A stretch of DNA of 64,000 bases from Pseudogemmatithrix spongiicola (GTDB lineage: Bacteria; Gemmatimonadota; Gemmatimonadetes; Gemmatimonadales; Gemmatimonadaceae): assembly GCF_030623445.1 (NCBI RefSeq), contig NZ_CP130613.1, positions 2,108,001 through 2,172,000 on the forward strand, given 5' to 3'. The notes under the pieces are model-generated. The model saw nothing but the letters and a program-made list of their open reading frames with translations, was not told the origin of the DNA and did no database searches. The position numbers were made by a program, and so were the translations under genes. Below are positions 15,223 to 32,730 of this stretch, piece by piece (positions within the stretch are counted from its first letter, which is position 1; the number at the start of each line of letters is the position of its first letter).

Positions 15223-15296
15223 TCGGGACGGCGGGATTCGAACCCGCGACCCCCTGAACCCCATTCAGGTGCGCTACCGGGCTGCGCTACGTCCCG
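15223..15296 (-). tRNA. tRNA-Pro(GGG), island integration site
   Basis: A full cloverleaf: acceptor CGGGACG/CGTCCCG, D arm GCGC..GCGC, anticodon stem CCTGA/TCAGG with anticodon GGG, T arm GCGGG/CCCGC with TTCGAAT, discriminator A; no encoded CCA. The 5' half (from the anticodon stem) plus about 39 bp of upstream DNA is repeated at 32649-32730. This copy is the reconstituted, working gene; its 5' half and promoter were most likely supplied by the island. Confidence 0.95.
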
Positions 15297-15335
15297 TCCG
15301 CCGCATGTGCGGACAGAACGGGAATACTAGTCGGG
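15254..15335. repeat. Left attachment site (att repeat inside tRNA-Pro)
   Basis: It runs from the 3' strand of the anticodon stem through the 5' half of the tRNA into upstream DNA. The first 51 bp are identical to 32649-32699; the rest has six mismatches, ending with CTAGTCGG. The repeat includes an imperfect palindrome (TCCGCCGCATGTGCGGA) just upstream of the tRNA. Confidence 0.88.
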
Positions 15336-15695: not shown

Positions 15696-17528
15696 GTGGC
15701 GGACAAGCAGCCGAAGAAGAGTGCAAAGAAGAAGCCGTCGAAGACGGAGAAAGACGATACGCGGGGACCAGATGCCAGCGGCGATCCGGCGGCAGTGCCC
15801 AGACCACGCCTCTCAAGGCTCACCGTTCAAAACTTTCGCGCGATTGGAGCTCAGCCGGTCTCGATCGAACTCGACAACATCGTCGTCTTGGTCGGACCCA
15901 ACAATACCGGCAAGAGCTCTATCCTCAAGGCCTACCAGCTCGTGATGAACGATGGTTCAGGAGAGGTGTCGCTCTCCGCCGATGACTTCCCCAACGGAAT
16001 CCCGGACCCGAACAACCCACCGACGATCGAGCTCACGACCATCGTCTATGGAGACTTGCCTGGCAAGGAATGGATTCACACGACTGCCGACGGCGAAATG
16101 GTGGTCCGCGAGCGCTGGCAGTGGAAGCAGGTGGGTAAGCCAGAGCGGGTTGGCTTTAACGTGCACAGAGGCCGATGGGCGGAACCCTCTGATGATGAGA
16201 AGGGGCCTTGGGGAGTTGCCAGCGTCGCGAATTCCCGACGACCCGAACCTCATCACATTGATGCGTTCGCTTCGCCCGACAAGCAGGCGACGGCGATTTC
16301 GAAGCTTCTCAGCGAGGTGCTCACACAGAGAATGGCGGAGCACAAGTCGAAAGGCAGCGACCCCGAGTCAGCCTTTGGGAAACTTCTCAAGTCGGTCTCT
16401 GAGCTCCAGGAAACCGTTTTAGCTGAAGTTCAGAGCGAAGTTGTCAAGCTCGAAGACTCCCTCAGCGAATCGCTGAACGAGCTGTTCCCCAAACATCGTG
16501 TCAAGTTTGACACGAACACCGGGAAGGACCTTAGCGAGTATGTCTCGCTATTCAAATCAGCGCCCAGTATTCGAATGGGGCCCACCGGTGGATTTCAGTC
16601 CCCGCTGGAACAACAAGGTAGTGGAGCGCGCCGCACGCTGCTCTGGACTGCAATCAAGCTGGTCGCTGAAGCCAATCGGGCAAAAAAAGGGCGCAATCAG
16701 CGACCATTCGTGCTCTTGTTGGATGAACCCGAGATCTGTCTGCATCCCGGGGCGGTCAGGGAGGCGAGCCGACTGCTCTATGAACTTCCAGAGAAGGCAT
16801 CGAACTGGCAGGTAATGCTCACGACGCATTCACCATGCTTCATCGACTTCTCACGCGACCACACCTCCGTCGTACGCGTCGAGCGTGCGGAGACGGGGGC
16901 GGTCACAGGCACCACGATCTTCCGGCCGAAGCTCGCAAAGTTTGACGCGACAGACAAAGAGGCCTTGAAACTACTCAATCTCTGCGATCCATACGTAGCA
17001 GAGTTCTTCTTCGGCGGTCGAGTTGTGCTTGTCGAAGGAGATACCGAGTACGCGGCGTTCCGATTCGTTATCGCGCAGAACCCTGACACGTTCCGCAACA
17101 TCCACATCGTGAAGGCGCGAGGAAAGGCAACCATCGTAGCCCTTTCCAAGATCCTGAATCAGTTCGGTGCACCCTACGCGATCCTTCATGATTCGGACAT
17201 GCCGACCGTCACAACCAAGACTGGCACGCGCAGGAACTCGGCTTGGACAGACAACCTGAGTATTCTGGCCGAGATCCAGAAGGCACCCGCTGAAACAAGA
17301 TTGCTTGCCTCAATCGAGAACTTTGAAGTTGGGTTTCTCGGCATCCCGAGCGGCAGATCTGAAAAGCCGTACAACGCTCTCGAGCACTTGCGCTCCGACG
17401 CTGACGCCCTGGCTGCGGTCACTGAACTCCTTTGGGCACTGGTTGATTTTCAACGATCGGTGCCAGCAGGTGCGGTTGAGTGGAGCGCCGAGAACGATTT
17501 GCTGGATGCCATCAAGAATAGAACTTGA
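15696..17528 (+). CDS. OLD-family ATPase with TOPRIM nuclease domain
   Basis: A 610-residue protein. After a Lys-rich tail (about 1-35) comes an ABC-type ATPase: P-loop GPNNTGKSS at 67-75, a coiled central part (ELQETVLAEVQSEVVKLEDSL), the signature-like QGSGARRTL, and Walker B FVLLLDEPEICLHP. A TOPRIM domain follows (VVLVEGDTEYAAF, then ILHDSDMP with the metal-binding DxD). This is the layout of OLD/overcoming lysogenization defect nucleases and of GajA. No UvrD-like GajB follows, so it looks like a stand-alone class 1 OLD rather than Gabija. GTG start with AGAGAGG 8 nt upstream. First cargo gene at the left end of the island. Confidence 0.88.
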   Translation: MADKQPKKSAKKKPSKTEKDDTRGPDASGDPAAVPRPRLSRLTVQNFRAIGAQPVSIELDNIVVLVGPNNTGKSSILKAYQLVMNDGSGEVSLSADDFPNGIPDPNNPPTIELTTIVYGDLPGKEWIHTTADGEMVVRERWQWKQVGKPERVGFNVHRGRWAEPSDDEKGPWGVASVANSRRPEPHHIDAFASPDKQATAISKLLSEVLTQRMAEHKSKGSDPESAFGKLLKSVSELQETVLAEVQSEVVKLEDSLSESLNELFPKHRVKFDTNTGKDLSEYVSLFKSAPSIRMGPTGGFQSPLEQQGSGARRTLLWTAIKLVAEANRAKKGRNQRPFVLLLDEPEICLHPGAVREASRLLYELPEKASNWQVMLTTHSPCFIDFSRDHTSVVRVERAETGAVTGTTIFRPKLAKFDATDKEALKLLNLCDPYVAEFFFGGRVVLVEGDTEYAAFRFVIAQNPDTFRNIHIVKARGKATIVALSKILNQFGAPYAILHDSDMPTVTTKTGTRRNSAWTDNLSILAEIQKAPAETRLLASIENFEVGFLGIPSGRSEKPYNALEHLRSDADALAAVTELLWALVDFQRSVPAGAVEWSAENDLLDAIKNRT

Positions 17529-17596: not shown

Positions 17597-18019
17597 TCAA
17601 GCCGTTGGCGGCATCTGCGCGCTCAAGTTCGGAAATGCAAGCTCATCCTTACCGTACCTCTTACAGATGTAGTGCGAAGCCCCGCGCTCTGGGTCATAGA
17701 CCTGAACATCTGAACGTCCCGACGTCCAGCTTTCCCGCAGGATGTTTGCTGGCAGCCCTCCAGTCCCGAACACCAAAGCATGATGATGCAGGAAGCCGGC
17801 AGTCGTCAGCTCCGAGAACATGGCGAACTGCACTGACCGCCCTGCCAACTGCTCTAGGCGACGAATCCACCGATAGAACTGACGATCGCCGCGAGCCGAG
17901 TAGTGGTAGGTCAACGTGACGAAGTGGTTCCAGCGGTGTCCGCCCAGCCACGCCCCCAGCTCGTCAGTAAGTCGCTCTTCCCCAAGCAGGGGGTATGTGT
18001 TCGTGTGTGCCGCGCCCAT
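17597..18019 (-). CDS. Small HUH endonuclease / replication-initiator-like protein
   Basis: A 140-residue protein with the three-motif pattern of rolling-circle Rep proteins in order: motif 1 HFVTLTYHYS, motif 2 (metal-binding HUH) FLHHHALVFG, preceded by FSELT, and motif 3 with catalytic-type tyrosines and lysine in SHYICKRYGK. It is shorter than most Rep proteins and has no helicase domain. The ATG at 18019 has GGGAG 8 nt upstream; an open frame further upstream is ignored. It faces a 750-bp gene-free stretch with iteron-like repeats. Alternative: a degenerate Rep relic or a transposase-like HUH enzyme. Confidence 0.58.
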   Translation of the reverse strand: MGAAHTNTYPLLGEERLTDELGAWLGGHRWNHFVTLTYHYSARGDRQFYRWIRRLEQLAGRSVQFAMFSELTTAGFLHHHALVFGTGGLPANILRESWTSGRSDVQVYDPERGASHYICKRYGKDELAFPNLSAQMPPTA

Positions 18020-18298
18020 GTCGATTGCTCCCTTCGCTGCGGAACTGGCGCGTAGACACCCAGCCTGGTCGGCTTGGGGTGCACCCGTGGTACAAGGCCG
18101 ACCGGGGCCAGTTCCTAGGTTGAGTTGAGGAAGAGGGCAGTTCGCATCACGGGTCATTGTCGATGGTGCCGATTTGCGCCTGCCTGGTTCTCCCGTTCAC
18201 CTAGTTAGTCGCTGTCACCGAGCACAAATCGCAAGAATCCACGGCGATCAGCGCTTGGAGCAGTCAGCAGCAGCTAAGAGATGCTAGATGTCACCAGA

Positions 18299-18337
18299 GG
18301 CCCCTGCTCCCCGTTCGGGGAGTGGGGGCCTTTTTTT
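18299..18337 (+). terminator. Strong intrinsic terminator
   Basis: A stem of GGCCCC..TGCTCCCC with GGGGAGT..GGGGCC around a GTTC loop, then seven Ts. No plus-strand gene ends just before it, so it may end a short RNA that runs antisense to the leader of the Rep-like gene. Confidence 0.85.
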
Positions 18338-18441
18338 CGTTCCCTCAAGGTCCATTGGCCGTCTCGGCTCGGATGGCCGGCGGCATAGCTAGCCCCTATT
18401 GCGTCCCGGCGCCTGCCGTCCTCAGCGTCTTCGTCGATAGA

Positions 18442-18534
18442 GGTGTATCGCGGTCGCGGTCAACGTGTATCGACGACCCTCCAAATACACCTCAACGTGT
18501 ATCCGTCTGGGGTTTCCGGATACTGGGTATATCG
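18442..18534 (+). repeat. Iteron-like GTGTAT repeats
   Basis: Copies of (A/G)(C/G)GTGTATC at 18442-18450, 18463-18472 and 18494-18503, an inverted copy (ATACAC at 18485-18490) and a weaker GGGTATATCG at 18525-18534. Spacing is about 21 to 31 bp, roughly two to three helical turns. They lie 420-515 bp upstream of the Rep-like gene. Confidence 0.55.
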
Positions 18535-18676
18535 ACGTGCAGGAGGCGCTCTTTTCGTCGATGGGCAGCCGCAGGAGCGGTACCCACTATCTCATCCCCA
18601 GTCCGACGCGTTTTTCTGAGCCCATACCTAGTCTGACGGCCTCCGTGGGCAGCATCTATCCCGGAAGCCCCCCTAC

Positions 18677-18703: not shown

Positions 18704-18743
18704 GCGGCCCCCAGAGCCTTCGCTCTGGGGGCCGCTCTTGTTT
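18704..18743 (+). terminator. Terminator-like hairpin just upstream of ardC
   Basis: A perfect 14-bp stem (18704-18717 and 18722-18735) with a CTTC tetraloop, followed by TCTTGTTT. It ends only 12 bp before the ribosome-binding site of ardC (GGAGG at 18756-18760), so it would attenuate ardC unless a promoter lies in the short remaining gap. Confidence 0.8.
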
Positions 18744-18768
18744 CCACCCTTTGCTGGAGGGCACCCAA

Positions 18769-19704
18769 ATGCCCAGGAAGACGGAAGGACCCCGCTATCT
18801 CGAGGTGACCGACCGAATCGTCGAGGCTCTCAAGAACGGCGTGGTGCCGTGGGAGCGCCCGTGGGCGTCGGCGGCACCCCGAAACGCCGAGAGCGGCAGA
18901 CGCTACCGCGGTATCAATCGGCTCCTGCTGGAGCTCACCGCGTTGGAGCGCGGCTACGAGTGCTCGGGCTGGCTGACCTACAGTGCGGCCAAGCGCCTCG
19001 GCGGCCACGTTCGGCGTGGCGAGTCGGGAACGATGGTGATTTTCTACGAGCGTCGCCCAAAACGGCCCTCCGAGGAGCCAAGCTGGGACCAGGAAGTTGA
19101 TCAGGAGTTTGTGTACCTAGCCCGGCACCACTGGGTCTTCTCCCTGCACCAAGTCGAAGGCTTGGACGGCCTCAGGGAGCACTTCGGCCGGATGTCATTC
19201 GTGGCTGATCCTGATGGGCGCGCTGAGCAGATCATCCAACGGTGCGGGGCGACCATCATCCACGCCGGTGACCGCGCGGCCTACGCCCCTGAGGAGGACT
19301 GCATCTACCTTCCCCCGCGAGCCCAGTTTGTCAGCGCCCCGGGCTACTACGCGACGGCCTTCCATGAAGCTGCGCACTGGACCGGCCACCCCACCCGGCT
19401 CCACCGGAACTTCGAGGGACGGTTTGGCGACCCGGCGTACGCCGCTGAGGAGCTGATCGCGGAGCTGGCGTCCGCGTTCCTCTGCACCGACGCTGGGCTG
19501 GAGACCGTGAGCCAGTCGGCCAGCTACATCGAGAGCTGGCTTCGCCTGTTGGATGGCGACTGCCGGGCGGTGTTCACGGCTGCGAAGGAGGCGCAGCTCG
19601 CTGCGGACTTCGTACTCGGGGAGTGGGAGCCGGAGGTCAGGCCTGCCACCGAACTGGGAGTCGAGGAGGCGTCCAAGCGGACCGAGCTGGTTTGCCTCGG
19701 ATGA
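18769..19704 (+). CDS. ArdC-type antirestriction protein
   Basis: A 311-residue protein. Residues 1-115 form the ArdC N-terminal ssDNA-binding domain (DUF1738: YLEVTDRIVEALKNGVVPWERPW, YRGINRLLL, GGHVRRGESGTMVIFY). Residues 160-300 are the zincin-like 'polyvalent' metallopeptidase domain with AFHEAAHWTGHP (HExxH) and downstream AEELIAELASAFLC. Such proteins travel on plasmids and ICEs and protect incoming DNA from restriction. ATG 18769 has GGAGG 8 nt upstream; the TTG at 18751 is less likely. Its presence in an island that itself carries a type III restriction system is worth noting. Confidence 0.92.
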   Translation: MPRKTEGPRYLEVTDRIVEALKNGVVPWERPWASAAPRNAESGRRYRGINRLLLELTALERGYECSGWLTYSAAKRLGGHVRRGESGTMVIFYERRPKRPSEEPSWDQEVDQEFVYLARHHWVFSLHQVEGLDGLREHFGRMSFVADPDGRAEQIIQRCGATIIHAGDRAAYAPEEDCIYLPPRAQFVSAPGYYATAFHEAAHWTGHPTRLHRNFEGRFGDPAYAAEELIAELASAFLCTDAGLETVSQSASYIESWLRLLDGDCRAVFTAAKEAQLAADFVLGEWEPEVRPATELGVEEASKRTELVCLG

Positions 19705-19755: not shown

Positions 19756-19845
19756 ACTACCTGTTATCACGCCGAGAGGGGATCAGCTCGCGCACCCTTG
19801 GGTGCGCGCGAGCTGATCCCCTCTCGGCTTATCAGTACAGGTAGT
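19756..19845. repeat. Long (90 bp) intergenic hairpin with flanking direct repeats
   Basis: The inner arms 19771-19797 and 19801-19828 pair over 27 bp with only a 2-nt bulge and a 3-nt loop; the outer arms ACTACCTGT (19756-19764) and ACAGGTAGT (19837-19845) extend it. It is flanked by a 15-bp direct repeat with two mismatches (19738-19752 and 19839-19853). No T-tract follows the inner stem, so it is not an ordinary terminator. It lies between ardC and the excisionase-like gene. Confidence 0.8.
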
Positions 19846-19961
19846 AACGCCAAGAATGGCTGCTTTTGTCAAGGCCTGGCGCGCAAAACCACCAACTGAG
19901 GATTGCAGATGTACAGGAAGTATTCTGCTCAACCAGCAATGCCGGGCAACGCGGGGCCGAC

Positions 19962-20237
19962 GTGGATCTCGGCGACGACAGGCTCCTGACCGCTGAGGAG
20001 CTCGCCAGCATTCTGAAGCTCGATGTCTCGAAGGTGTACGCCCTTCCCATCGACAAGATCGTGCTGTCCCCGAGGCGTACTCGCTGGAAGCTGGGAGATG
20101 TTCGTCGGTACCTCGCGTCGGTGACGGTGTCAGCACCGCGACCACTGCAAGCGAGCCCAAGCATTCCAGCAGCCCACCCGCTGCGACACAGTAGCTTGGC
20201 GCACGCAGCGCCTCTCGCGCAGCGCCGTAGCAAGTAA
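19962..20237 (+). CDS. Excisionase-like helix-turn-helix protein
   Basis: A small protein (91 residues from the GTG at 19962) with one winged-helix DNA-binding domain of the AlpA/Xis/HTH_17 kind: LLTAEELASILKLDVSKVYAL, then VLSPRRTRWKLGDVRRYLAS. The tail is low-complexity and basic. It lies 75 bp upstream of the integrase, as an excisionase would. The start is uncertain: TTG at 19866 gives 123 residues, and neither start has a strong ribosome-binding site. Confidence 0.7.
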   Translation: MDLGDDRLLTAEELASILKLDVSKVYALPIDKIVLSPRRTRWKLGDVRRYLASVTVSAPRPLQASPSIPAAHPLRHSSLAHAAPLAQRRSK

Positions 20238-20312: not shown

Positions 20313-21431
20313 ATGTCACGTCGTTCTGGCCAGTGTAAGCTCATCGCAAGAGGGAAGTATCGCATTCGGATCGTCGTCGGCACGATCGGCGGAAGGCGTC
20401 GCACGTACTCAGAAACGATTCACGCCACAAAGGAGGCGGCCGAGAAGAGGCTCAGGGAGTTGCTGGTGCAGCGGGATGCTGGCACGCTCCTTAGTCCGGT
20501 CACGATGTCGGTAGCCGAGTGGCTCGATGAGTGGCTGAGGAAGACGGTTGAACCCAACAGGAAGCAGCGCACAACGGACGGGTACCGGGAGATGGCCCGT
20601 CGGTACATCGTCCCCCACCTCGGCGAGATCGGTGTATCCGAGCTGACTCGCGACCACGTAGTCGCCTGGGTCAATACGCTGAAGGCCAAGGGGCTCAGCC
20701 CGCGAAGCATCAAGCACGCGTTCTCAGTGCTCCACAATGCGTTCACCCAGCTTGTTAAGGCCGGCAAGCTGGGGACGCATCCCTGTAAGGATATCGAACG
20801 GCCGACGGTCGAGCGGGCGAAGGTAGCCTCCCTCACAGTCGAGCAGGCGCAGACGTTGTTGCGTGCGCTGCCTGGCGAGCCACTGGGGGCGCTCTGGGCC
20901 CTACTTCTGACGGCCGCACTCCGTCCATCCGAATCGCTGGCGCTCCGGTGGTGCGACATCGAGGGCGGGACAATCAACGTGCGGCGCGCTGTGTCTTGGA
21001 CGAGCAAGGGGCTGGTGATCCAGTCTCCCAAGACCAAGCAGGGCTACCGCCACATACCTCTTGACCCACTGGCCACCACACTCCTGAAGGCACGGTGGGA
21101 CCAGTCAGAGCATCGGAAGCCGGAGGATCTCATCTTCAGCCAGGACGGGGTCACCCCGATGAACCAGAAGGTTCTGGCACGGCGGCAGTTCAAGACGCTG
21201 CTCCAGCGTCATGGGCTTCCGCAGATTCGGCTCTACGACCTGCGGCACACGGGGACCACCCTCCTCCTGGCCGCCCAGGTCCCGCTCACGGTTCTCAAGG
21301 AGAGGCTCGGCCACAAGGACGCGGCATTTCTGATCGACACGTATGCCCACGTGCTGCCGAACCAGCAGAACGAAGCTACGGCAGCGCTGGCCACGCTGCT
21401 CGGAACATCGCAGCACGAGAGCGGATCCTAG
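20313..21431 (+). CDS. int: Tyrosine recombinase / integrase
   Basis: A 372-residue phage-type integrase: N-terminal AP2-like arm-binding domain (YRIRIVVGTIGGRRRTYSETI), SAM-like core-binding domain (about 65-150) and catalytic domain with the full active site: Arg in ALRPSESL, Lys in SPKTKQGYRHIPL, His-x-x-Arg in YDLRHTGTTLL, His in LGHKDA and the nucleophile Tyr in IDTYAHVL. It presumably recombines the tRNA-Pro att sites. GGAG 7 nt before the ATG. Its distance from both ends (about 5 kb and 11 kb) is unusual. Confidence 0.96.
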   Translation: MSRRSGQCKLIARGKYRIRIVVGTIGGRRRTYSETIHATKEAAEKRLRELLVQRDAGTLLSPVTMSVAEWLDEWLRKTVEPNRKQRTTDGYREMARRYIVPHLGEIGVSELTRDHVVAWVNTLKAKGLSPRSIKHAFSVLHNAFTQLVKAGKLGTHPCKDIERPTVERAKVASLTVEQAQTLLRALPGEPLGALWALLLTAALRPSESLALRWCDIEGGTINVRRAVSWTSKGLVIQSPKTKQGYRHIPLDPLATTLLKARWDQSEHRKPEDLIFSQDGVTPMNQKVLARRQFKTLLQRHGLPQIRLYDLRHTGTTLLLAAQVPLTVLKERLGHKDAAFLIDTYAHVLPNQQNEATAALATLLGTSQHESGS

Positions 21432-21522: not shown

Positions 21523-22257
21523 CTACCACCAGGCAGGACGGCCAGTCGCGTCAAGCAACTCGCTGCAGCTCAGATAGTCTCGCCGAACCTCGCGGCCAAT
21601 CGCCAGGATTGAGGCTTCGCAGCCGGCGTCTCGCAGGGCGAGCACCGCCGACGCCGCAGTGGTCCCCCGAACCCAAAGGTCTTCGATCAGAAGAACCCGT
21701 TCTCCTCGTAGACCGGATCGAGCCTCAAACAGCCCAGCTTGAACCTCGCGAGTGACACGCGGGAGCCCAGTGTGCTTCAGTGCGGGCTCGGCTACGCTCT
21801 TGATAGCACCCACGCTGCGAAGGACCCTCAGGAGTGGCTGAACATCCGCCGCTACCTTTGTAGAGGGAACTGGGGCAACAACCGTCGGTGCGCCACCAAG
21901 CTCCTTTGAAATCTCATCGAGATGTTGCTCAACGGCACCAGAGAGAATCGCCGTGACGCGTTCTAGACTAGCTGTGTCCGGGCGCCCGGGCGTTCGCTTA
22001 TATGAGATGAAGGACGGATAGAGGTCGGACGGGTTTGGGACCAACACCCCGACGTGAACTCTTCCGAGCTTCACAGACCGCGCTACGATAGTGCAACCAC
22101 CGCACGTCTTGAACAGAGAATCCTTCGTTCCGCTGCATCTCGGGCACTGATCCGCGCGACCGGTGTGGTCAGCGGAGTGAAGCGCCCCACTGAGTGGCGC
22201 AAGAACCGACCGTCGTCGCTCAGAAAGCGATGTCGGCAACGGTATCCCAAGCCTCAC
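21523..22257 (-). CDS. ComF-like phosphoribosyltransferase-domain protein (ShosT-like)
   Basis: About 244 residues. A four-cysteine zinc ribbon (CPRCSGTKDSLFKTCGGC) comes first, then a type I phosphoribosyltransferase domain with the PRPP loop VLLIEDLWVRGTTAASA. In ComF the partners act in DNA uptake; here the gene is last in a defence operon, directly after a DprA-like gene. That pair is the composition of ShosTA, in which the PRTase (ShosT) is toxic and the DprA-like protein (ShosA) neutralises it. GTG at 22257 is my choice and overlaps the DprA gene by 38 bp; TTG at 22239 or ATG at 22332 are alternatives. Confidence 0.75.
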   Translation of the reverse strand: MRLGIPLPTSLSERRRSVLAPLSGALHSADHTGRADQCPRCSGTKDSLFKTCGGCTIVARSVKLGRVHVGVLVPNPSDLYPSFISYKRTPGRPDTASLERVTAILSGAVEQHLDEISKELGGAPTVVAPVPSTKVAADVQPLLRVLRSVGAIKSVAEPALKHTGLPRVTREVQAGLFEARSGLRGERVLLIEDLWVRGTTAASAVLALRDAGCEASILAIGREVRRDYLSCSELLDATGRPAWW

Positions 22258-23173
22258 CAGCGAGCGCTTCGGCGATCTCGTCGGCTTCCCGAACCAAGAT
22301 TGCCCTCCTGCCCCGTCGGCCCTCTTCGACAAGCGACTTGGCCCAAGCGTGTTGTTCCGTCAATGACTGCGGCAGAAACACCGGTCGCCCGTGCTCCAAG
22401 GCTGCGAATGCTTGCGACTTGGCGCCTGACGTCTCTGACGCCTCGATCACCACGGTTGCCAGCGTTAGCCCCGACATGGTTCGATTGCGACGCAAAAAGT
22501 GCCATGGCCGCGTCACGGTCCCTGGCGGAAACTCGCTCACGAGTGCTCCACCTTGACCAACGATGCTTTCGGCAAGCGTGGCGTTTGCGGCAGGATAGCG
22601 TCGATCAATCGACGTTCCCATCACAGCTACCGTGACCCCGTCAGACTCCAGGGCAGCTGAGTGAGCCGCCGCGTCGATTCCAGCGGCAAGCCCAGAGACG
22701 ACCGTAAAGCCTGACTTCACCAAGGCCTCGGCCGCCTTGCGAGCCCTCACTATGCCGGCCTTCGAAGCCTTGCGGGTGCCGACCACCGCTACGCCAGGTC
22801 GAAGTAGTGACTCCGATGCGCCTTCGACAAAGAGGATCGGCGGCGCGTCAGCAATCTCGGCCAGTTGGCTGGGATACGACTCGGTTCCGAGCGGAATGGG
22901 CTTGAAAGCTTTGCCCTGCCAAGCGCTCGGTGCCGATGCAGCGATTGAGCTTCCGTCTACCTCGACGGCTGCAGCGAAAAGGTCTCCGAACTGCTGTTGC
23001 CTGTCGCGCCAAGTGCGAAGGGCAGCGGACGGCGCCTCAAACTCTTGAACGTAGGCGCTATAGCGACGATAGACCTGCTCGAGGGCACCGTGGTTCCTAC
23101 CCTCGGAGATCTCGATCCAAAGCTGCCAGGCGCTCTGTATCTCAGCTTCCAGCTTGGCGTTGGCGTGAGTCAT
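22220..23173 (-). CDS. DprA/Smf-like protein (ShosA-like)
   Basis: A 317-residue protein. After a helical N-terminal part (about 1-110, unlike the SAM domain of standard DprA) comes the DprA Rossmann-like domain: GVAVVGTRKASKAG, VVSGLAAGIDAAAHSAAL, VMGTSIDRRYPA, LVSEFPPGT and FLRRNRTMSGL. Standard DprA binds ssDNA and loads RecA during transformation. Here it is in a mobile defence operon, 120 bp after the Res gene and overlapping a PRTase gene, which suggests a role in immunity, either as ShosA-type antitoxin or as a nucleic-acid sensor. The chromosome should carry its own housekeeping dprA elsewhere. Confidence 0.88.
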   Translation of the reverse strand: MTHANAKLEAEIQSAWQLWIEISEGRNHGALEQVYRRYSAYVQEFEAPSAALRTWRDRQQQFGDLFAAAVEVDGSSIAASAPSAWQGKAFKPIPLGTESYPSQLAEIADAPPILFVEGASESLLRPGVAVVGTRKASKAGIVRARKAAEALVKSGFTVVSGLAAGIDAAAHSAALESDGVTVAVMGTSIDRRYPAANATLAESIVGQGGALVSEFPPGTVTRPWHFLRRNRTMSGLTLATVVIEASETSGAKSQAFAALEHGRPVFLPQSLTEQHAWAKSLVEEGRRGRRAILVREADEIAEALAGEAWDTVADIAF

Positions 23174-23293: not shown

Positions 23294-26272
23294 TCACGAC
23301 GATGTAGCAAGGAGGTCATCGAGCGTCCGAACCACGGTGTACTCCGCTGGACTCTCCCTGACCGCAAGCGCACGGAAATGCGCCTTGCCGCACTCAATCT
23401 TTCCCTTCTCCACGTCACGGAGACTGTCCAGGAAGAGATCCCCCTTCGTCTCCACCACGAAGTAGAGGCGCTCCGCACCATCCTTCTCGACCAGCACCGC
23501 CCAGTCCGGGTTGTAGCCACCGAGCGGCGTTGGCACGACGAACCACCCCGGCAGCTTGGCGTACACCTTGATCGAGTCGTTCTTCTCTAACTGGTCAGCA
23601 AAGGCGCGCTCGACGTCCGAGTCGTATACGACACCCTCATAGACCGCCTTCTTCGCCTCCAACAGATTCTTGAGGTAGCCAGTCAGCTCCTTCTCCGCGA
23701 AGAGCTCTTGCGCGTAGTAGTGCTCGTCGCCCATCCGCTCGTACTTGATGCCATCGACGATAGCGAGGCGCTTGCAGCGATTGATCGCCTCAGCGGTGAA
23801 CTCGATGAAGGCCTGCGGATTGCGCTTGAAGTCACCGAGCCTCCCGCTACCGGTTAGGATGCGCTGGATGCTTCGGCGGGTCAGTTGCGTACGGTCCTGC
23901 AGGTCGGTGAGCAGATCGGGCAACTCGATGTCGGCCTCATCGAGCACCACCGTAGCCGACCCCGCCCGCTCTGTGGCCTCGACGCCGGCCTTGCCAATGG
24001 CAATGTCAGCCTTACGCCACTGCAAGCGGGTTTTCGGGATTGGAGGCGCCTCGCGCACCGCGCGGATGCAGTTCTCGACAAGCTTCTCGTTGTCGAACTG
24101 CACGCGATAAGTCGTCTTGTGCTTGATACGATCCCACAGAGCCTTGAACTCAGGGCTGTGCAACACGGCTTGACGAGTGCCAACCTGCCGACGCTCGTCA
24201 GCGTTCTTGATCTCGAGGCGCCCTGCCAGCTTCTTCAAGACCTGGGCGATCTGATCGCGCTGCGTAGCGAACGGTTCTGGCATAGTTAGAGTACCGTCCT
24301 TCAACGCCTGCTTTAGCGCATCCTGCACCTTCCCTCTCGCGTCTATGAGCCCAACGGCCTTGAGGTGGTCCCACAGCGCCCTGGATTGCTTAACGCCAAG
24401 CGGCGCGGTGCTGCCGTCAGGCTGTGGGACCGCGAGCCCAGCGAACTGGTGCGGCTCGACGACGCCGAATCGTATTCCCGTATCCTGCTCGATCTCCTTC
24501 TGAAGGTTCTCGGCGAACTGTTCGTAGCGCTCCATCGCGACAACAGTAAGCGTGTTGACCTCGAAGCCGCGTACACGCTCGCCGTTCTGGTTGACGCAGA
24601 GTCGCAGCCCTCGCCCAATCGTCTGGCGCCGTTCGCGTTCGGTCTGGATGTCACGCAGGGTACAGATCTGGAAGACGTTCGGGTTGTCCCAACCTTCTTT
24701 TAGCGCAGAGTGTGAGAAGATGAACTTGAGCGGCGTCTCGAACCCGAGCAGCTTCTCTTTCTCCTTCATAATCAAGTTGTAGGCGCGCTCAGCGTTGTCG
24801 CGGTTCGTCTGGTTGTTCTCCGCGGTGTCCGTCCATCCGCCCTTCTTGTCGATGGAGAAGTAACCATTGTGCACCGCCTCAGCGGCACGAGTGAGGTCCA
24901 CCTCCTGAAACAGCGTGCGATAGTCGGGCAGATTCGCCGCGCGGCGGTACTCCTCTTCAAAGATACGCGCGTACTCTCCCTTCACCGGATTGCCGTCTGC
25001 GTCGTACGACCGGTACTTGGCAACCTCATCGATGAAGAACAGCGATAGCACCTTGATGCCTTGCGGCCTGAGACGCTTCTCCTTGTCCAGGTGCTCTCGA
25101 ATCGTCCTGCGGATCATCTCGCGTTGCACCGCCATCGGATCTACGTCACCCCAAGCCTGCCCGGGCTTCAGATAGTGCTCACCACCAGGCACTCGCAACT
25201 CTAGGTACGTGTCGCCCTTAGCCACACGGATCTCGCCAATCCTGCAGTCAGTGTAGAGTGCTCGGCCGGTAGTCAGCTCCAAGCTGTCGCCGTCCTGGAC
25301 GGTAACCTCCTGCCGGCGCACCCCGCCCCCTGCAACCTGCATATCCAGCTCAACCCGTGCACTGACCGCACCGCGCCTGTTGTTAGCGGAAACAAGCCGC
25401 ACATAGGGCTTGTTGTGAGCGTCTTCGATCGTTGCCGATGCGACCTCGATTTGCTTCACCAGCCGCCTCTCATACGCATCCACCGCGTCAAGCCGGTAGA
25501 CCATATGGTGCTTGTCCACATGGGTGGCGGAGTAGCGCAAGGTGCAGAGCGGGTTCATCGCATCGAGTGCTTCTTTGCCGCGTCCCTCGAGGCCGCCGTC
25601 TACGCTCTGCGGCTCGTCCACGATTAAGACGGGACGCGTGGCCCTGATTAGGTCGATCGGCTTCTCGCCGCCGGTCTTCTCACTGTCCTTGTAGAGGTTG
25701 TTGACGTCCTTCTTGTTGATGGCTCCCACAGTAACCACCATGATCTGGATGCTGGCACTGGTGGCGAAACTGCGTACCTGGCCAAGCTTGGCAGAGTCGT
25801 ACAGAAAGAAGTCGAAGGGGACGCCGGCATAGAGCCCTCGGAAGTGCTCCTCGGTAATCTGTAGCGACTTGTAGACCCCCTCTTTAATCGCCACTGACGG
25901 CACAACGATCACGAACTTGGTGAATCCATACCGCTTGTTCAGCTCAAAGATCGTTCGCAGATAGACGTACGTCTTGCCGGTACCGGTCTCCATCTCGACT
26001 GTGAAGTCGCCCGAAGCCAGCGTGCCCGACGGGAGGAGACTGTGGCGCAGCTGAATGTCCTCGAGGTTCTTCAACAATTCCTCGTCGAGCAGCGTCAGCC
26101 GGTTTCCAACACCCAGGTCGCTTTCGGCAAAGGCCAATGCCTCCTGTCCGCCCACCGCATTCCGTGTAACGGTGAACTCCGTGCGACAGACCTCCTGCCC
26201 GCGGAACAGGTCGCAGACGGCCTCGATCGCTTGAAGCTGGTAGTCAAGGTTCGGCTCGAAGTGGAGCCTCAT
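23294..26272 (-). CDS. Type III restriction enzyme, Res subunit
   Basis: A 992-residue SF2 helicase/nuclease. Walker A is METGTGKTY (94-102), the DEAD-box variant is VDEPQS as usual for Res, motif III-like RYSATHVDKHH, and motif VI QTIGRGLRL. The C-terminal PD-(D/E)xK nuclease is visible as YNPDWAVLVEK followed by VVETKGD. Res works only with Mod and cuts after ATP-dependent communication between two inversely oriented sites. ATG at 26272 gives the usual short N-terminus MRLHFEPNLDYQLQAI; the 150-bp gap to mod is unusually long for this pair and contains a CTCGGAG/CTCCGAG palindrome. Confidence 0.96.
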   Translation of the reverse strand: MRLHFEPNLDYQLQAIEAVCDLFRGQEVCRTEFTVTRNAVGGQEALAFAESDLGVGNRLTLLDEELLKNLEDIQLRHSLLPSGTLASGDFTVEMETGTGKTYVYLRTIFELNKRYGFTKFVIVVPSVAIKEGVYKSLQITEEHFRGLYAGVPFDFFLYDSAKLGQVRSFATSASIQIMVVTVGAINKKDVNNLYKDSEKTGGEKPIDLIRATRPVLIVDEPQSVDGGLEGRGKEALDAMNPLCTLRYSATHVDKHHMVYRLDAVDAYERRLVKQIEVASATIEDAHNKPYVRLVSANNRRGAVSARVELDMQVAGGGVRRQEVTVQDGDSLELTTGRALYTDCRIGEIRVAKGDTYLELRVPGGEHYLKPGQAWGDVDPMAVQREMIRRTIREHLDKEKRLRPQGIKVLSLFFIDEVAKYRSYDADGNPVKGEYARIFEEEYRRAANLPDYRTLFQEVDLTRAAEAVHNGYFSIDKKGGWTDTAENNQTNRDNAERAYNLIMKEKEKLLGFETPLKFIFSHSALKEGWDNPNVFQICTLRDIQTERERRQTIGRGLRLCVNQNGERVRGFEVNTLTVVAMERYEQFAENLQKEIEQDTGIRFGVVEPHQFAGLAVPQPDGSTAPLGVKQSRALWDHLKAVGLIDARGKVQDALKQALKDGTLTMPEPFATQRDQIAQVLKKLAGRLEIKNADERRQVGTRQAVLHSPEFKALWDRIKHKTTYRVQFDNEKLVENCIRAVREAPPIPKTRLQWRKADIAIGKAGVEATERAGSATVVLDEADIELPDLLTDLQDRTQLTRRSIQRILTGSGRLGDFKRNPQAFIEFTAEAINRCKRLAIVDGIKYERMGDEHYYAQELFAEKELTGYLKNLLEAKKAVYEGVVYDSDVERAFADQLEKNDSIKVYAKLPGWFVVPTPLGGYNPDWAVLVEKDGAERLYFVVETKGDLFLDSLRDVEKGKIECGKAHFRALAVRESPAEYTVVRTLDDLLATSS

Positions 26273-26423
26273 CGGGGACCGCCCTTCCTGCCTTGTGTGC
26301 TTGCAGCTGCACCGGGGAGCCGCGACTGCCTCGGAGCCTCCGAGAGCACGAGGCGAATCGGAACCGACGCCCCGTACTCTGCCGCAGGGCGCCTGCCGGT
26401 CGGTTCGTTTGGCTTCGACACTT

Positions 26424-28367
26424 CTACAGGCTCCGCACGTTTGTGATGCCGTGCTGATTAAGTATGGCCGCCATATTGGTCTTGGCCACGTCGTCGGCAA
26501 AGGCGCTGTCGCGGAACACGCAGGTGGTGTCGCCCGCCGGCGAGAGCGCCTTGTGCCAGTCCACGATGCCTTCAGCGAGGAGATTCACCTCTTCGCGAGT
26601 AATCTCTGTAGTGAGACACGCTAGGAGCACTCCGCCTCCGATGCTGTGCACCTCCCGGCCGGCGATAGTCGCTTTCTGGATTGGCACACACAGATCGAGG
26701 CCCAGCTTAAGCAGCAGCTCGTAAAGGATGTCCTGCTCGGTGCGGCCTTCCTTAAGGTGGTCGGCGTGCTCGAGGAGCGTTTCTTCCAGATTGTCGCGAT
26801 CAGGCTCCCACGCACGGATGTTGCTGGAGTCGAGCTTGAACACGCGGAATCCAAGATCACCAGCGAAGAGCGGATTGTCACCCCTGACCTTCGCCGCGGC
26901 GCGACGAAGACGCTCCTTGGTCAGCTCAGCGATATTGCGCGGCTTGCCGAGTTTGTCGCAGAAGTCGGCCGGCACCTTTTGTTCTCTTGTCTCTGGGTCC
27001 AGTGGTTCGGGCAGTTGGACGAGGATAAAGCGCCTCTGACCGCCGTCGCTCGCATTGTGCTCAAGCACGGCGTGTGCAGTGGTGCCGCTGCCGGCGAAAA
27101 AGTCCACAACGATTGCATCCTGCTCCGCAGCCGCCATTTGAAGAATGTGCCGGAGCAGACCAACTGGCTTCGGATAGCTGAAAACCTTCTCTCCGTCGAA
27201 GAGAGTCTTGAGAGCCCGCGTTGCCTTCTTGTTGCCCTCCAGTTCGTCCCAAAGGTTCGACGGCTGCTTAAGGCGTCCTTCAAGGTAGAACTTCTGATAC
27301 ACTTGCCACGTGAGCGCGCCGCTACTCTCGACCTGCTGCCATTCGATGAGACCTTCAGCAACCATCTCCTCATAGCGATCCCGACCACAGATCCATCGGC
27401 TCTGATAGCCCGTAGGTCCAATCGGAAATATCTCGCTACCGTCCGGAGCGGTTAGTCCAAAGTACATACTAGGCCGATCCTCTCGTCTGTCCTCACCTCC
27501 GGTCCTGCGCAGAGACCGAATGAGGTACCTACCGTTCGCGTCTTCGCGGTCGTAGATCGCGGCGTCATCTTCACTGAAGGCGACGCCCTGAATCTCGACA
27601 TCCGGCTGCCGCAAGTAGAGAAGGACGTTGTCCGTTTCGTTGACCAGCGTTCGGAATCCACCGCCAGTCGGTGTTCCTGTGACTCGTGCCACACATCCAG
27701 CGTAGCACTCGGGACCAAACACTTCGTCACAGACTGCCTTTAGGTTGGAAAGCTCATTGTCATCGATTGAAATAAAGATCGCACCGGACTGCTTAAGCAG
27801 GGCCCGCGCCAGCTTCAACCGCGGATACATCATGTTGAGCCAATCCGTATGGAACCTTCCACTGGCCTCAGTATTGCTGCTAGTCCTCCGCCCGCCCTCT
27901 GTCTGTGACGTGAGCTCAAGGTAGTTCTTGATGTTGTCCTTGAAGTCGTCGGGATATACGAAGTCTTTGCCCGTGTTATAGGGCGGGTCGATGTAAATGA
28001 GCTTCACCTTCCCCGCGTAGCTCTTCTGAAGGAGCTTGAGCACCTCGAGGTTGTCGCCCTCGATCATCACATTCTGGGTCGTCTCCCAGTCAACGCTGTC
28101 CTCTGGGCAGGGGCGCAACGTGCCGGTGGAGGGTGTGAGGGCAAGCTGCCGGGCGCGACGCTTGCCGTGCCACGTGAGGCCGTACTTCTCCTCGGCGTCG
28201 GTTACCGTCCTGTCGCCAACAAGCGACTTAAGCACGTCCACGTTGATAGCGACGCCATCCAGCCCCTCGGTCACAAGCTCGGGAAACAAAGCCTTGAGGC
28301 GCTCGACGTTCTCAGACACGAGATCTGCGCTCTTGGTCTCCGAATCTGCGGCAGACAGCTTCTTCAT
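26424..28367 (-). CDS. Type III restriction system DNA methyltransferase, Mod subunit
   Basis: A 647-residue beta-class adenine methyltransferase. The catalytic motif IV DPPYNTG is at 127-133, before the SAM-binding motif I VDFFAGSGTTAHAV (about 424-437), the order expected for Mod proteins. The variable target-recognition region lies in between (about 210-380). The C-terminal part (about 480-647) contacts Res. It methylates one strand of an asymmetric site at N6-adenine; the target cannot be read from the sequence. It starts 14 bp after the DUF4391 stop. Confidence 0.96.
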   Translation of the reverse strand: MKKLSAADSETKSADLVSENVERLKALFPELVTEGLDGVAINVDVLKSLVGDRTVTDAEEKYGLTWHGKRRARQLALTPSTGTLRPCPEDSVDWETTQNVMIEGDNLEVLKLLQKSYAGKVKLIYIDPPYNTGKDFVYPDDFKDNIKNYLELTSQTEGGRRTSSNTEASGRFHTDWLNMMYPRLKLARALLKQSGAIFISIDDNELSNLKAVCDEVFGPECYAGCVARVTGTPTGGGFRTLVNETDNVLLYLRQPDVEIQGVAFSEDDAAIYDREDANGRYLIRSLRRTGGEDRREDRPSMYFGLTAPDGSEIFPIGPTGYQSRWICGRDRYEEMVAEGLIEWQQVESSGALTWQVYQKFYLEGRLKQPSNLWDELEGNKKATRALKTLFDGEKVFSYPKPVGLLRHILQMAAAEQDAIVVDFFAGSGTTAHAVLEHNASDGGQRRFILVQLPEPLDPETREQKVPADFCDKLGKPRNIAELTKERLRRAAAKVRGDNPLFAGDLGFRVFKLDSSNIRAWEPDRDNLEETLLEHADHLKEGRTEQDILYELLLKLGLDLCVPIQKATIAGREVHSIGGGVLLACLTTEITREEVNLLAEGIVDWHKALSPAGDTTCVFRDSAFADDVAKTNMAAILNQHGITNVRSL

Positions 28368-28381
28368 CGAGTCCTCATTCC

Positions 28382-29140
28382 TCAGAGCCTTGCCAGCGCC
28401 GCAGCCAGCTCGGCCTCGACGCGCTTAAGTTCGAGATTCAGTTCCACTTGCCGGGGCACCTGCCGTTCCTTCGCGGCAGCCGCGCGCAGCCGAGCGACTT
28501 CGGCACTATACCGCTCGTGCGCCCGAAGCGCCTCTCGCCTTGCGCAGCGTTCTCCAGCCTCGGACAAGATAGCAAACCGCCCTGACACCTGAGCGGCAAG
28601 CAGTGCAATCAGGGTGTCCATCCAGCCCTGATACAGTTCATACAGGTCGGAGCGCGGCTGCCGTGCCAGAGACAGCGCATTCCGAAACTCTGAAAGCACG
28701 TCCGCCTGCTCCGTCGTCGCTACGTGCGCCGCCACCACCTCGCCATCGAGCACCGTTGATCGCTCCTGCCCCATCGACCATCGCTTGTGGGCCAGTGAAA
28801 GCGCACGACTCCCGCCGTCGTCCGAAAGAAGCAAGACCGGATATGGTATCGCGCGATGAAGCAGTTCGACGAGACGGCCGGCCCTGGCGCCAACCCGAAG
28901 CGAAGCGATAAGCACCGCGATCTCCAGGTACTCACGCACGTCGTCGCGGAACGCTGGCACGCCGACCGTACCCGGCTTCAGGGTGGCCACCCAGTGCACC
29001 TCCTCAACACCTTCAATAATCCGACGCCGGTCAGCAGCCGTCGGCGCACCGTGCTCCACCAGAAGGGTCTTGGGCACACGGCGGCCCACCCGCGCGCTTG
29101 GTGGCAGGTCCAGCGCGGCAATCGTATCGGCAACCGTCAC
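28382..29140 (-). CDS. DUF4391 protein of the helicase/RM operon
   Basis: A 252-residue protein. The N-terminal half matches my memory of DUF4391: RVGRRVPKTLLVEHG, then RRIIEGVEEVHWVATLKPGTVGVP and REYLEIAVLIASLR, and LLHRAIPYPVLLL, an alpha/beta fold of unknown activity. The C-terminal 80 residues are a coiled coil (EVARLRAAAAKERQVPRQVE). The start overlaps the helicase stop by 4 bp (ATGA) and mod follows after 14 bp, so it is bound into the operon. DUF4391 is repeatedly found between SNF2 helicases and type III Mod/Res genes. Confidence 0.85.
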   Translation of the reverse strand: MTVADTIAALDLPPSARVGRRVPKTLLVEHGAPTAADRRRIIEGVEEVHWVATLKPGTVGVPAFRDDVREYLEIAVLIASLRVGARAGRLVELLHRAIPYPVLLLSDDGGSRALSLAHKRWSMGQERSTVLDGEVVAAHVATTEQADVLSEFRNALSLARQPRSDLYELYQGWMDTLIALLAAQVSGRFAILSEAGERCARREALRAHERYSAEVARLRAAAAKERQVPRQVELNLELKRVEAELAAALARL

Positions 29141-32100
29141 GAGGCGTTATCTGACAGGATCGCAAGGAACGCCACTACCTCAAAGTCGTCAATCCCGGCA
29201 AACTCGCCCTCGAGCGCGTGGGTACCGCCCGGGGTAAAGAGGCTGGCGACAGCACGTTCCTCGGTCTTTCCGACGACAGAGGTTACCGCCGCACCAAGGA
29301 GCCGCCTGACACGATTCATATCCTCACCGCGCTTGGTGGCCACGTCGAAGCTGGCGCAGGCAGCGGCGTCGGGCAGATCCCGGCCCACACACATGCGCTT
29401 GAGCCGATCCAGAATCTGCTTTGCCTGCGTAAACGGCAGCAACACGGTGCCGTCGTCGCCGACGTGCACGAGGTAGTGCGGTGCCAGCGGGTAGCCCGGC
29501 TCGAAGGACCGGGCGGCGGCCTCACCCTCGGCTCGTATGCAGTACACAACGCCCGGCGGGATAGCATCGTCCGCGGTGACAACAGCGGCCATCGTCCCGA
29601 GCGGCAGAGTTTCGAGCACACCAGGACGGGCTCGCAGGTACTCCGCCAAGTCAATGCGGAAGTCGGTCAGCGTCAGATCCGCAATCGATACACCGGTGGA
29701 CAGGTCCTCGAGGTCGATGACCGCATCCTGCAGCTTCAGCAACTGCTTGCGACGATACTCGAGGTCGTTCATCGGATTACCTGACTGCTGCTCGATCAGG
29801 TTCTCCTCCCCCGTGGCCGAAATGTCGAGGAGCACCATACGGCCACTCACCTTCTGCTCGAGGCCGATATACTCCTCGAGCTCCATGTTGGGCCAGAAGT
29901 TCACGAGCTGGATGCTGGCATTGGGTGACCCCAGGCGGTCAATCCGACCAAAGCGCTGGATGATCCGGACCGGGTTCCAGTGAATGTCGTAGTTGATCAG
30001 CCAGTCGCAGTCCTGAAGGTTCTGACCTTCAGAAATGCAATCCGTGGCGATGAGCAAGTCGACGTCACCCTCATCCGCCAGTTCCTCTGGCCGCTCTTTC
30101 GAACGCGGCGCAAAGGAAGTCAAGATCGACGCAAGATCCCTGCGCAGACCGGGCAGCGTGGTCTGGTTTCCGCCCGCGCCTGTGACCAGCGCGGCGTGTA
30201 TTCCCAGGGACTTCTTGGCCCAGGGAGCGAGCTGTTCGTACAGGTAGCGGGCAGTGTCGGCGAACGCGGTGAAGACGATGACCTTGCGGTTGCCGGGATT
30301 GATTGGCTGGCGACACTTGTGCTCGATCACCTCGCGCAGTGCCGCCAGCTTGGCGTCTCGGCCGGCATCGACCTCCCGCGCCGCGGAGACTAAGCTCGCA
30401 AGCCGGTTACGGTCCTCGATCAAGTCCTGCCTCCAGCGCACCACGTCCACGTCCCTGAGCAACACCTTGACCTTGCGCCCAACGACCAGGCTCTCGAACG
30501 CTGGATCCTCAAGGTCGAGGTCATCAGCGGACATCTCTATCTCTTCCAAGTCGTCGGCCTGCGCCTCGATGCGCGCGATCGTCGCCTCTACGTCGCGGAG
30601 CTGGCGCTCCACGGTGAGCGCGAATGACGGCACCGCGCTCTCCATCCGTTTCAAGACATTGACCCGCAGCAAGTGTATGAGGCTTTCCTCGCGGTCAACC
30701 TGGCGGAAGAAGCCCGTTCCCCCCTTCACCTGAGTGCTGTACTTGCGATCGTAGGCCTCCTGCTTGTGCGGCAGCACGTAACGTAGGGGGGCGTATGAGG
30801 CGAGGTTCAGCCGGCGAATCTCGAGATTGATGGCCGCGATTGCCGGGAATTCTCCTGCTCGATCCACGTCGGCCTTGATGTTGATGGGCCTGAGGCGCTC
30901 TGGGAATCGGCCAGTTTCCTTGGTGCCGTAGTACTTCTCGATGTGGCGACGAGAACGAGCGATGGTAAGGAGGTCGAGCAAAGTGAAGTAGTCGAATCCC
31001 AGCATCTCAATGAGACGCGAGGGCGTGCGTTCGGCTTCGTCCAGATCGAGCCAGCGGTTGAACTGCCGCTGCGCAAGGCGAGTCGTGGCATCAATGCTTC
31101 CGATGCCGTGGTCCAACAGTGCGGTGTCGTCGCCCTCGGTGGCGAATGCGATCTGATTCCTGAGGTCAGCCAGGCGGTTGTTAACTGGCGTGGCCGAGAG
31201 CATCAGAACCCGCGTTTTCACCCCTTCGCGGATGATCTTGCGCATGAGACGGTCATAGCGCGTCTCGCCTCCGGCCTGAGGCGTCTTCTTGTTCCGGAAG
31301 TTGTGCGACTCGTCGATCACAACGAGATCGTAATTGCCCCAGTTCACGTGGGCGAGATCGATATCGCCGGAAAGCCCGCCGTCACGGGACAAGTCCGTGT
31401 GATTCAGGACATCGTAGTTAAACCGGTCCCCCGCCAGCACGTTCCGACGGTCATTGGCCTTGTAGAGCGTCCAGTTGTCGCGCAGACGCTTTGGGCAAAG
31501 CACCAGCACCCGATCATTCCGAAGCTCGTGGTACTTGATGATGGCCAGTGCTTCGAAAGTCTTTCCGAGCCCCACGCTGTCTGCGATAATGCAGCCGCCG
31601 AACCGCTCTAGCTTGTCGATAGCACCGACCACGCCGTCTCGCTGGAACTTGTAGAGCTTCTTCCACACCTGCGTCTCGCGGATCCCCGTGGCCGACTTGA
31701 CGACCCGCTCCTCATCCAAGTCGTCTCCGCGCGCCTTGAAGACGTGATGTAAAATCAGGTTGTAGACGAGGGATGGATCCTTGTGCGAAGCCAGACCGTC
31801 GAGCTCGGCCAGCAGCTCACTCTTGGCGCTCTCGTCAGCGAGCAAGCTTTTCCACTGAACGTCAAACCAGCCGCTCAACGCTGCCGCTTCGCCGACCGAC
31901 TCGGATGCTTGGATCAGGCTGAGCGAGTTTCCAGGGGCGAGCCCGAGGCCATCCGTGCTCAGGGAGAGTGAGCCCAGCACCACGTTGAGCGGCGCGCCGG
32001 AGGCATCACGCACCACGGCGGTGCCTTGAGGCACGGCTCCCCTAGCTCGGCGCACCTCAACTGTCGTTCTTAGCCATTCGGCCAGAGAACGGGCGAGCCA

Positions 32101-32340
32101 ACGCTGCTGAAGCCGATTCCGGGCTGCGCGATCCTGCTCTGAGCCCAGGAGTAGCAGGTCGGAGCCAGACCTCGGTAGTACGAGCCGGCTGTGGCCGAGC
32201 CTGGACAACGGCGCTCTCAGTTCCGCGAAGGCGAAGAGCGAGAGCGACGACGTCACCAGGTCAAGTCGCCGTCCCGGTTGCAATGCGGAGCTGAAGATGT
32301 CGATGACTCGATCGCTACCGGCATTCGCAACTAGTCGCAT
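29137..32340 (-). CDS. SNF2-family helicase with degenerate PLD-like N-terminal domain
   Basis: A 1067-residue protein leading the operon. Residues 1-150 look like a phospholipase-D-type nuclease domain (DIFSSALQPGRRLDLVTSS, then VLGSLSLSTDGLG in place of the GSxNxT motif) but the HxK residues are missing. The SNF2/RapA-type motor follows: FGGCIIADSVGLGKT (Walker A), VLCPKRLRDNW, VVIDESHNF (motif II), LMLSATPVNNR, then C-terminal helicase motifs LIATDCISEGQNLQDC and QRFGRIDRLGS. Residues 880-1067 are of unknown fold. RapA-like translocases of this kind remodel protein-DNA complexes; here it probably cooperates with Mod/Res. Confidence 0.92.
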   Translation of the reverse strand: MRLVANAGSDRVIDIFSSALQPGRRLDLVTSSLSLFAFAELRAPLSRLGHSRLVLPRSGSDLLLLGSEQDRAARNRLQQRWLARSLAEWLRTTVEVRRARGAVPQGTAVVRDASGAPLNVVLGSLSLSTDGLGLAPGNSLSLIQASESVGEAAALSGWFDVQWKSLLADESAKSELLAELDGLASHKDPSLVYNLILHHVFKARGDDLDEERVVKSATGIRETQVWKKLYKFQRDGVVGAIDKLERFGGCIIADSVGLGKTFEALAIIKYHELRNDRVLVLCPKRLRDNWTLYKANDRRNVLAGDRFNYDVLNHTDLSRDGGLSGDIDLAHVNWGNYDLVVIDESHNFRNKKTPQAGGETRYDRLMRKIIREGVKTRVLMLSATPVNNRLADLRNQIAFATEGDDTALLDHGIGSIDATTRLAQRQFNRWLDLDEAERTPSRLIEMLGFDYFTLLDLLTIARSRRHIEKYYGTKETGRFPERLRPINIKADVDRAGEFPAIAAINLEIRRLNLASYAPLRYVLPHKQEAYDRKYSTQVKGGTGFFRQVDREESLIHLLRVNVLKRMESAVPSFALTVERQLRDVEATIARIEAQADDLEEIEMSADDLDLEDPAFESLVVGRKVKVLLRDVDVVRWRQDLIEDRNRLASLVSAAREVDAGRDAKLAALREVIEHKCRQPINPGNRKVIVFTAFADTARYLYEQLAPWAKKSLGIHAALVTGAGGNQTTLPGLRRDLASILTSFAPRSKERPEELADEGDVDLLIATDCISEGQNLQDCDWLINYDIHWNPVRIIQRFGRIDRLGSPNASIQLVNFWPNMELEEYIGLEQKVSGRMVLLDISATGEENLIEQQSGNPMNDLEYRRKQLLKLQDAVIDLEDLSTGVSIADLTLTDFRIDLAEYLRARPGVLETLPLGTMAAVVTADDAIPPGVVYCIRAEGEAAARSFEPGYPLAPHYLVHVGDDGTVLLPFTQAKQILDRLKRMCVGRDLPDAAACASFDVATKRGEDMNRVRRLLGAAVTSVVGKTEERAVASLFTPGGTHALEGEFAGIDDFEVVAFLAILSDNAS

Positions 32341-32648: not shown

Positions 32649-32730
32649 CTGAACCCCATTCAGGTGCGCTACCGGGCTGCGCTACGTCCCGTCCGCCGCG
32701 TGCGCGGACAGACCGGGAAACCTAGTCGGT
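32649..32730. repeat. Right attachment site: displaced 5' half of tRNA-Pro
   Basis: It holds the 5' acceptor strand, D arm and anticodon stem-loop of tRNA-Pro(GGG) plus upstream DNA, without the T arm or 3' acceptor strand, so it cannot fold into a tRNA. The 51-bp exact repeat is 32649-32699; weaker identity continues into the last codons of the serine-hydrolase gene. This is most likely the original host 5' half, separated by the insertion. Confidence 0.88.

Follow-up and report, generated by a model that had tools for sequence, protein, structure and literature searches.

The 140-residue protein encoded at 17597-18019 of the window, the whole stretch of 64,000 nucleotides analysed here, probably initiates the replication of a mobile element integrated at a tRNA gene, and this element would replicate by a rolling-circle mode after excision. 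The interval is a real open reading frame on the minus strand (18019..17597), the plus strand not being open, and its single-domain product reads MGAAHTNTYPLL...NHFVTLTY...FLHHHALVF...SHYICKRYGKD... An alternative in-frame start at 18157 would give an HUH protein of 186 residues.

17597..18019, minus strand: HUH endonuclease, single-domain, REP_ORF2-G2P family, with H78, H80, Y117 and K120 (Pfam, tblastn, alignment, fold)

The earlier note on this DNA had recognized FVTLT, HHHALVF and Y-x-x-K motifs in the order of rolling-circle initiators. These lie at approximately residues 33-37 (FVTLT), H78-H-H80 and Y117-I-C-K120 (Y-x-x-K), and their identification is upheld by the Pfam match, by matches to microvirus proteins and by the conserved columns described below. 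The protein matches one Pfam family, REP_ORF2-G2P (PF23343), at 38.7 bits over profile positions 1-98 of 99; since the curated cut-off of the family is 27.8 bits, the motifs are not due to chance. Two weak replication-initiation families were matched in PHROGs, and the best match in the viral model library was a microvirus-type Rep (E 1.2e-6). In tblastn searches against annotated phages the matches, of microvirus type (E 1e-5 to 7e-4), were solely to replication initiators of ssDNA phages with genomes of ~4.4 kb. No helicase domain was found in the 140-residue protein, as had been noted before; this absence is not unusual, being the norm in the G2P/microvirus Rep class. The protein resembles the microvirus initiators (VP4) and filamentous phage G2P in its Pfam family, motif order and lack of a helicase; however, those proteins are larger and belong to free phage genomes of ~4.4 kb. 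Ancestry shared with the Reps of ssDNA phages and plasmids is part of the best reading.

Both the structure prediction and the profile search that had been proposed as checks were conducted. AlphaFold models had a pLDDT of 77.5 when built from six sequences and of 89.4, with a pTM of 0.83, when built from twelve. In a Foldseek search of the PDB the best match to the model was the SIRV1 ORF119 Rep (2x3g, E 2.2e-4), and VIA-align superposed the two with a Z of 9.4 and 3.0 A over 103 residues at 16% identity, followed by the Rep domains of TYLCV, FBNYV, WDV and a circovirus (Z 8.5 to 7.4). Each of the top eight VIA-align rows (Z 9.4 to 7.4) is a Rep nuclease; as unrelated ferredoxin-like folds begin at Z 7.3, these first rows alone stand out. 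A sequence profile of twelve relatives likewise placed 2x3g first in the PDB (E 0.0035), its nine weaker rows (E 0.5-1) being HUH replication proteins throughout (Rep/NS1 nucleases), and the HUH histidines of the window protein align with the SIRV1 LHYH. That the 140-residue protein has an HUH Rep nuclease domain is confirmed by fold prediction and two independent profile searches, and H78, H80 and Y117 are expected, based on the fold match, to stand side by side in space.

Like the window protein, the SIRV1 ORF119 Rep (119 residues), its best match by both fold and profile, is a stand-alone HUH domain without a helicase, although SIRV1 is an archaeal linear dsDNA virus and in this respect unlike the window element. 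Nicking and joining by the stand-alone SIRV1 domain have been shown, in work cited in PMC6668415, so a domain this small can act without a helicase. The SIRV1 Rep uses a flip-flop mechanism and acts as a dimer (PMC4187194).

When genome and viral contig collections, and plasmids, were scanned with the single protein, no relatives were returned because these are too diverged for such patterns, and whole-genome profile searches were therefore used. By these searches, a few percent of the genomes drawn from the same family, order, class and phylum have a diverged relative (7 of 148, 15 of 394 and 16 of 395, in draws that overlap). The alignment of 12 relatives has W30, H78, H80, L82 and Y117 as its only invariant columns, with K120 (at least 90%) and E70 nearly invariant, although these relatives have only 22-36% identity to the window protein. 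It does not include the G002:C316 and G172 matches, nor the partial ones in G012, G040 and G115. For one pair of relatives, L046 and L047 (56% amino-acid identity), dN/dS is ~0.22. At the sequence level, this conservation pattern and the dN/dS of the pair point to selection on an active HUH site.

These data also bear on whether the gene is an inactive remnant of an integrated microvirus or plasmid, in an island that moves by its integrase only or not at all. The nearest phage relatives are indeed microvirus Reps, and the HUH gene is broken by stop codons in two relatives (G090 and G134), in which HUH function is therefore dispensable. In contrast, the window copy is intact with all catalytic residues present, it is the catalytic columns that stay invariant in relatives this divergent, and a repeated association with integrases (see below) is unexpected for a random relic, all of which makes a remnant very improbable. 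A search for the microvirus major capsid protein (PF02305) gave matches in 0 of 13 genomes, and no control matched either.

The HUH gene lies in an island of 17.5 kb that is a genuine tRNA-integrated mobile element with its own integrase, based on the following boundary features and on the tyrosine integrase gene (20313-21431) inside them.

15223..15296, minus strand: tRNA-Pro (anticodon GGG), integration target, intact at the left end (ARAGORN, Rfam; also in same-genus genomes)
15254..15334, unstranded: left attachment repeat, the 5' half of tRNA-Pro plus 38 nt upstream (81-nt direct repeat, 94%)
32649..32729, unstranded: right attachment repeat, a displaced (orphan) 5' half of tRNA-Pro plus upstream DNA (direct repeat)

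The two copies of the 81-nt direct repeat, 94% identical, bound the island exactly. The first 43 nt of the repeat are the 5' half of tRNA-Pro(GGG). The remainder derives from the DNA preceding the tRNA, and this DNA shows partial conservation next to the same tRNA in same-genus genomes. We therefore conclude that insertion took place within the tRNA gene, whose 5' half the element restored, while an orphan half remained at the right end. The G+C content is ~0.56-0.64 inside the island versus ~0.66-0.71 outside, and same-genus genomes have the tRNA-Pro without the HUH gene, except for G134 with its stop-interrupted copy.

The other annotated genes of the island are as follows.

15696..17528, plus strand: OLD-family ATPase/TOPRIM nuclease, defence cargo (Pfam AAA_15 and OLD-like_TOPRIM; PADLOC Old 7e-94)
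18751..19704, plus strand: ArdC-like antirestriction protein, ArdcN plus MPTase-PolyVal (Pfam 1.8e-30 and 7.4e-45)
19866..20237, plus strand: HTH_17-like small protein, likely an excisionase (Pfam HTH_17 16.4 bits, below the cut-off of 27; PHROG excisionase 3.5e-4)
20313..21431, plus strand: tyrosine recombinase (integrase) (Pfam Phage_integrase 64 bits; PHROG integrase 3.4e-70)
21523..22332, minus strand: PRTase-like protein, probable ShosT partner (weak Pribosyltran match below cut-off; overlaps the DprA-like gene)
22220..23173, minus strand: ShosA/DprA-like protein (Pfam DNA_processg_A 1.7e-62; PADLOC ShosA 2.8e-69)
23294..26500, minus strand: type III restriction subunit (PADLOC REase_III 1374 bits)
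26424..28367, minus strand: type III methyltransferase (PADLOC MTase_III 3.9e-219)
28382..29140, minus strand: DUF4391 protein (Pfam 1.3e-68)
29137..32340, minus strand: HKD/SNF2-type helicase (PADLOC HKD+Snf2 7.4e-108; Pfam Helicase_C and SNF2-rel_dom)

The overlapping PRTase-like and DprA-like genes (21523-23173) resemble the ShosTA defence pair. From 23294 to 32340, the type III methylase and restriction subunits adjoin the DUF4391 and HKD/SNF2 helicase genes in a compact minus-strand defence cluster. The orphan tRNA-Pro half at the right end points into this minus-strand operon, which starts at 32340, and the old tRNA promoter may drive it.

ArdC proteins are typical of transferred DNA, and the ArdC gene adjoins the HUH gene, as would suit the main rival to a replication initiator, a mobilization relaxase. 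Such an HUH protein would nick the excised element at an oriT, from which a single strand would exit via a helper conjugation machine (an integrative mobilizable element), similar to MobT/Rep_trans-type initiators in Gram-positive elements. There is precedent for this in the Rep-like HUH proteins that serve as relaxases in some ICEs and IMEs, as described for MOBT in PMC6499999. However, both sequence and fold group the window protein with replication initiators, the island genes included no recognizable coupling protein or accessory Mob protein, and the VirB4-type ATPase (PF03135), for which a control genome matched, is absent from the host genome. We consequently consider a relaxase role unlikely.

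The earlier note had proposed that the island can replicate or transfer after excision, or has plasmid or ssDNA-phage ancestry. Given that the island is truly integrated at a tRNA gene and encodes an integrase of its own, this is the best reading of the fold, profiles, integrase and tRNA repeats taken together, while replication itself is something we infer. From the computed parts list, predicted fold, conserved residues and integrase association we likewise infer each step by which the replication initiator would act. The integrase and the HTH/Xis protein would excise the 17.5 kb island as a circle, on which the HUH protein would nick one strand at an origin and stay bound via Y117, leaving a 3'-OH for the host polymerase. 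A host UvrD/Rep-type helicase could then unwind the DNA, as for helicase-less phage Reps, and the HUH protein would re-join the displaced strand, with re-integration following. The extra circles may raise both maintenance and the chance of transfer, and ArdC could protect the incoming element DNA from restriction.

The association of HUH and integrase genes recurs in the phylum. A Phage_integrase match was found within 6.5 kb of the HUH gene in nine of the 15 genomes with a relative, and several contigs among the six remaining genomes end close to the HUH gene. Based on integrase density, 0.35 genomes were expected to have an integrase near the HUH gene (within 7 kb; P ~6e-12). An integrase-seeded contig scan detected only remote integrases of Clostridia and Actinobacteria, and no HUH-family gene was present in those loci. 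There are tRNA genes in 10 of 14 scanned HUH loci, and when each tRNA was searched against its own locus, six elements of 5.1-17.5 kb, including the window island, were closed by tRNA repeats; two of these are just ~5 kb. The other five are listed here.

L019: 10.1 kb, tRNA-Asn, with McrBC and DUF3800 cargo (no integrase match on the contig)
L020: 10.4 kb, tRNA-Lys, with DndB-like and Eco57I-like cargo
L021 (genome G002): 5.4 kb, tRNA-Met
L024: 5.1 kb, tRNA-Arg, integrase and HUH gene broken
L048: 8.0 kb, tRNA-Lys

In L020, L047, L048 and L049 the HUH gene occurs together with HTH and integrase genes, and BrxC/D-like genes lie near L049. At L021 2364-3598 the HUH gene is directly followed by a gene for a terminase small subunit (PF03592, 1.6e-36). 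This gene, in an element of 5.4 kb, suggests phage satellites, in which the HUH protein would replicate the element upon helper phage infection and the DNA would be packaged in helper capsids. Defence genes are frequent in satellites (PMC11389934), and satellite packaging is possible for at least L021. As a general explanation it is quite unlikely, based on the fact that no terminase, capsid or other phage structural gene is among the annotated genes of the window island, nor, the L021 terminase small subunit apart, was any phage structural gene among the genes examined in the other elements. It is conceivable, if rather doubtful, that all of these belong to one class, spread across the phylum, of minimal integrative elements of 5-17 kb that consist of an integrase, an HTH protein and a single-domain Rep plus interchangeable defence cargo. 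Such elements would alternate between tRNA-integrated and rolling-circle states, and some would have acquired a terminase small subunit and travel as phage satellites.

There are precedents for a replication initiator of this kind in HUH Reps of integrated plasmids, RepSA of AICEs and a G2P-family protein of CP4-57. Integrative plasmids have HUH Reps and site-specific integration and are without viral structural genes (Kazlauskas et al., 2019, PMC6668415), and the window element is similar in being integrated site-specifically, encoding an HUH Rep and having no viral structural genes among its annotated genes. Unlike those plasmids, most of its 17.5 kb is defence cargo, and while the pCRESS groups detailed in that paper have Rep nuclease-helicase fusions, the window Rep is a single domain of 140 residues. 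That paper names, in addition, viral Reps that have no helicase and integrated HUH groups left unassigned. AICEs such as pSAM2 (RepSA, Int and Xis) combine a tyrosine integrase with an HUH rolling-circle initiator that has ϕX174-like motifs (PMC3218068). The window element shares with them its integrated state, tyrosine integrase and HUH rolling-circle-type initiator; however, no FtsK/SpoIIIE Tra gene is named among its individually annotated genes, and its Rep is very small and belongs to the ORF2-G2P family, unlike RepSA. In the E. coli K-12 element CP4-57, YfjJ (L057 7048-7674) matches REP_ORF2-G2P at 29.9 bits, over the cut-off, and, as in the window, sits in a chromosomal element that carries an integrase, AlpA and anti-phage genes. 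YfjJ differs from the window Rep in subfamily (PF11726, YagK_YfjJ_C) and in its cryptic prophage context. What is distinctive in the window element is the unusually small Rep together with the heavy defence cargo. An anonymous defence island has thus become a bounded element with a predicted replication engine, which points to a means by which large defence cargo could be maintained and passed on within this bacterial group. The minimal HUH nickase (~120 ordered residues) and the near-minimal elements of ~5 kb are direct test systems for excision and rolling-circle replication.

The nick site of the HUH protein was sought in the window and not found. The candidate structures between the HUH and HTH genes are listed here.

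18296..18333, plus strand: terminator-like hairpin with a T tract (hairpin analysis)
18431..18537, unstranded: short repeats around GTGTATC, with two exact TCAACGTGTATC copies 32 nt apart and an imperfect palindrome; weak candidate for a Rep/Xis binding region
18704..18735, plus strand: 14-bp hairpin, terminator-like, directly upstream of ardC
19771..19828, unstranded: perfect 23-bp inverted repeat with a 12-nt spacer; candidate origin or regulatory structure (z -10 to -12)

The repeats and hairpins that had been noted near the HUH gene exist, but two of the hairpins at 18.0-18.8 kb are terminator-like and the strongest inverted repeat (19771-19828) is outside that region. The hairpins adjoining the HUH gene were rejected as evidence of an origin, both strong ones being terminator-like on the plus strand. 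The inverted repeat at 19771-19828 is the strongest structure in the window, is single copy in the genome, has no T tract and sits within an imperfect palindrome of ~90 nt (19756-19845) between ardC and the HTH gene.

Upstream of the window HUH gene, the best stem within 150 nt is only 5 bp, and the gene is without the upstream hairpin that several relatives possess. Across the family, stems upstream of HUH genes are longer than those upstream of other genes (P 0.008, from one exploratory test that includes two related loci), which is no more than suggestive. Upstream of the HUH genes of the related pair L046 and L047, a noncoding block of ~95 nt has stayed almost the same in surroundings that vary, and this block is a candidate origin. 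Within the hairpin right before the start codon the loop AGACTTGAA is kept and the stem has a paired change. The regions with this block are L047 8460-9480 and L046 3440-4405, in elements that have otherwise diverged.
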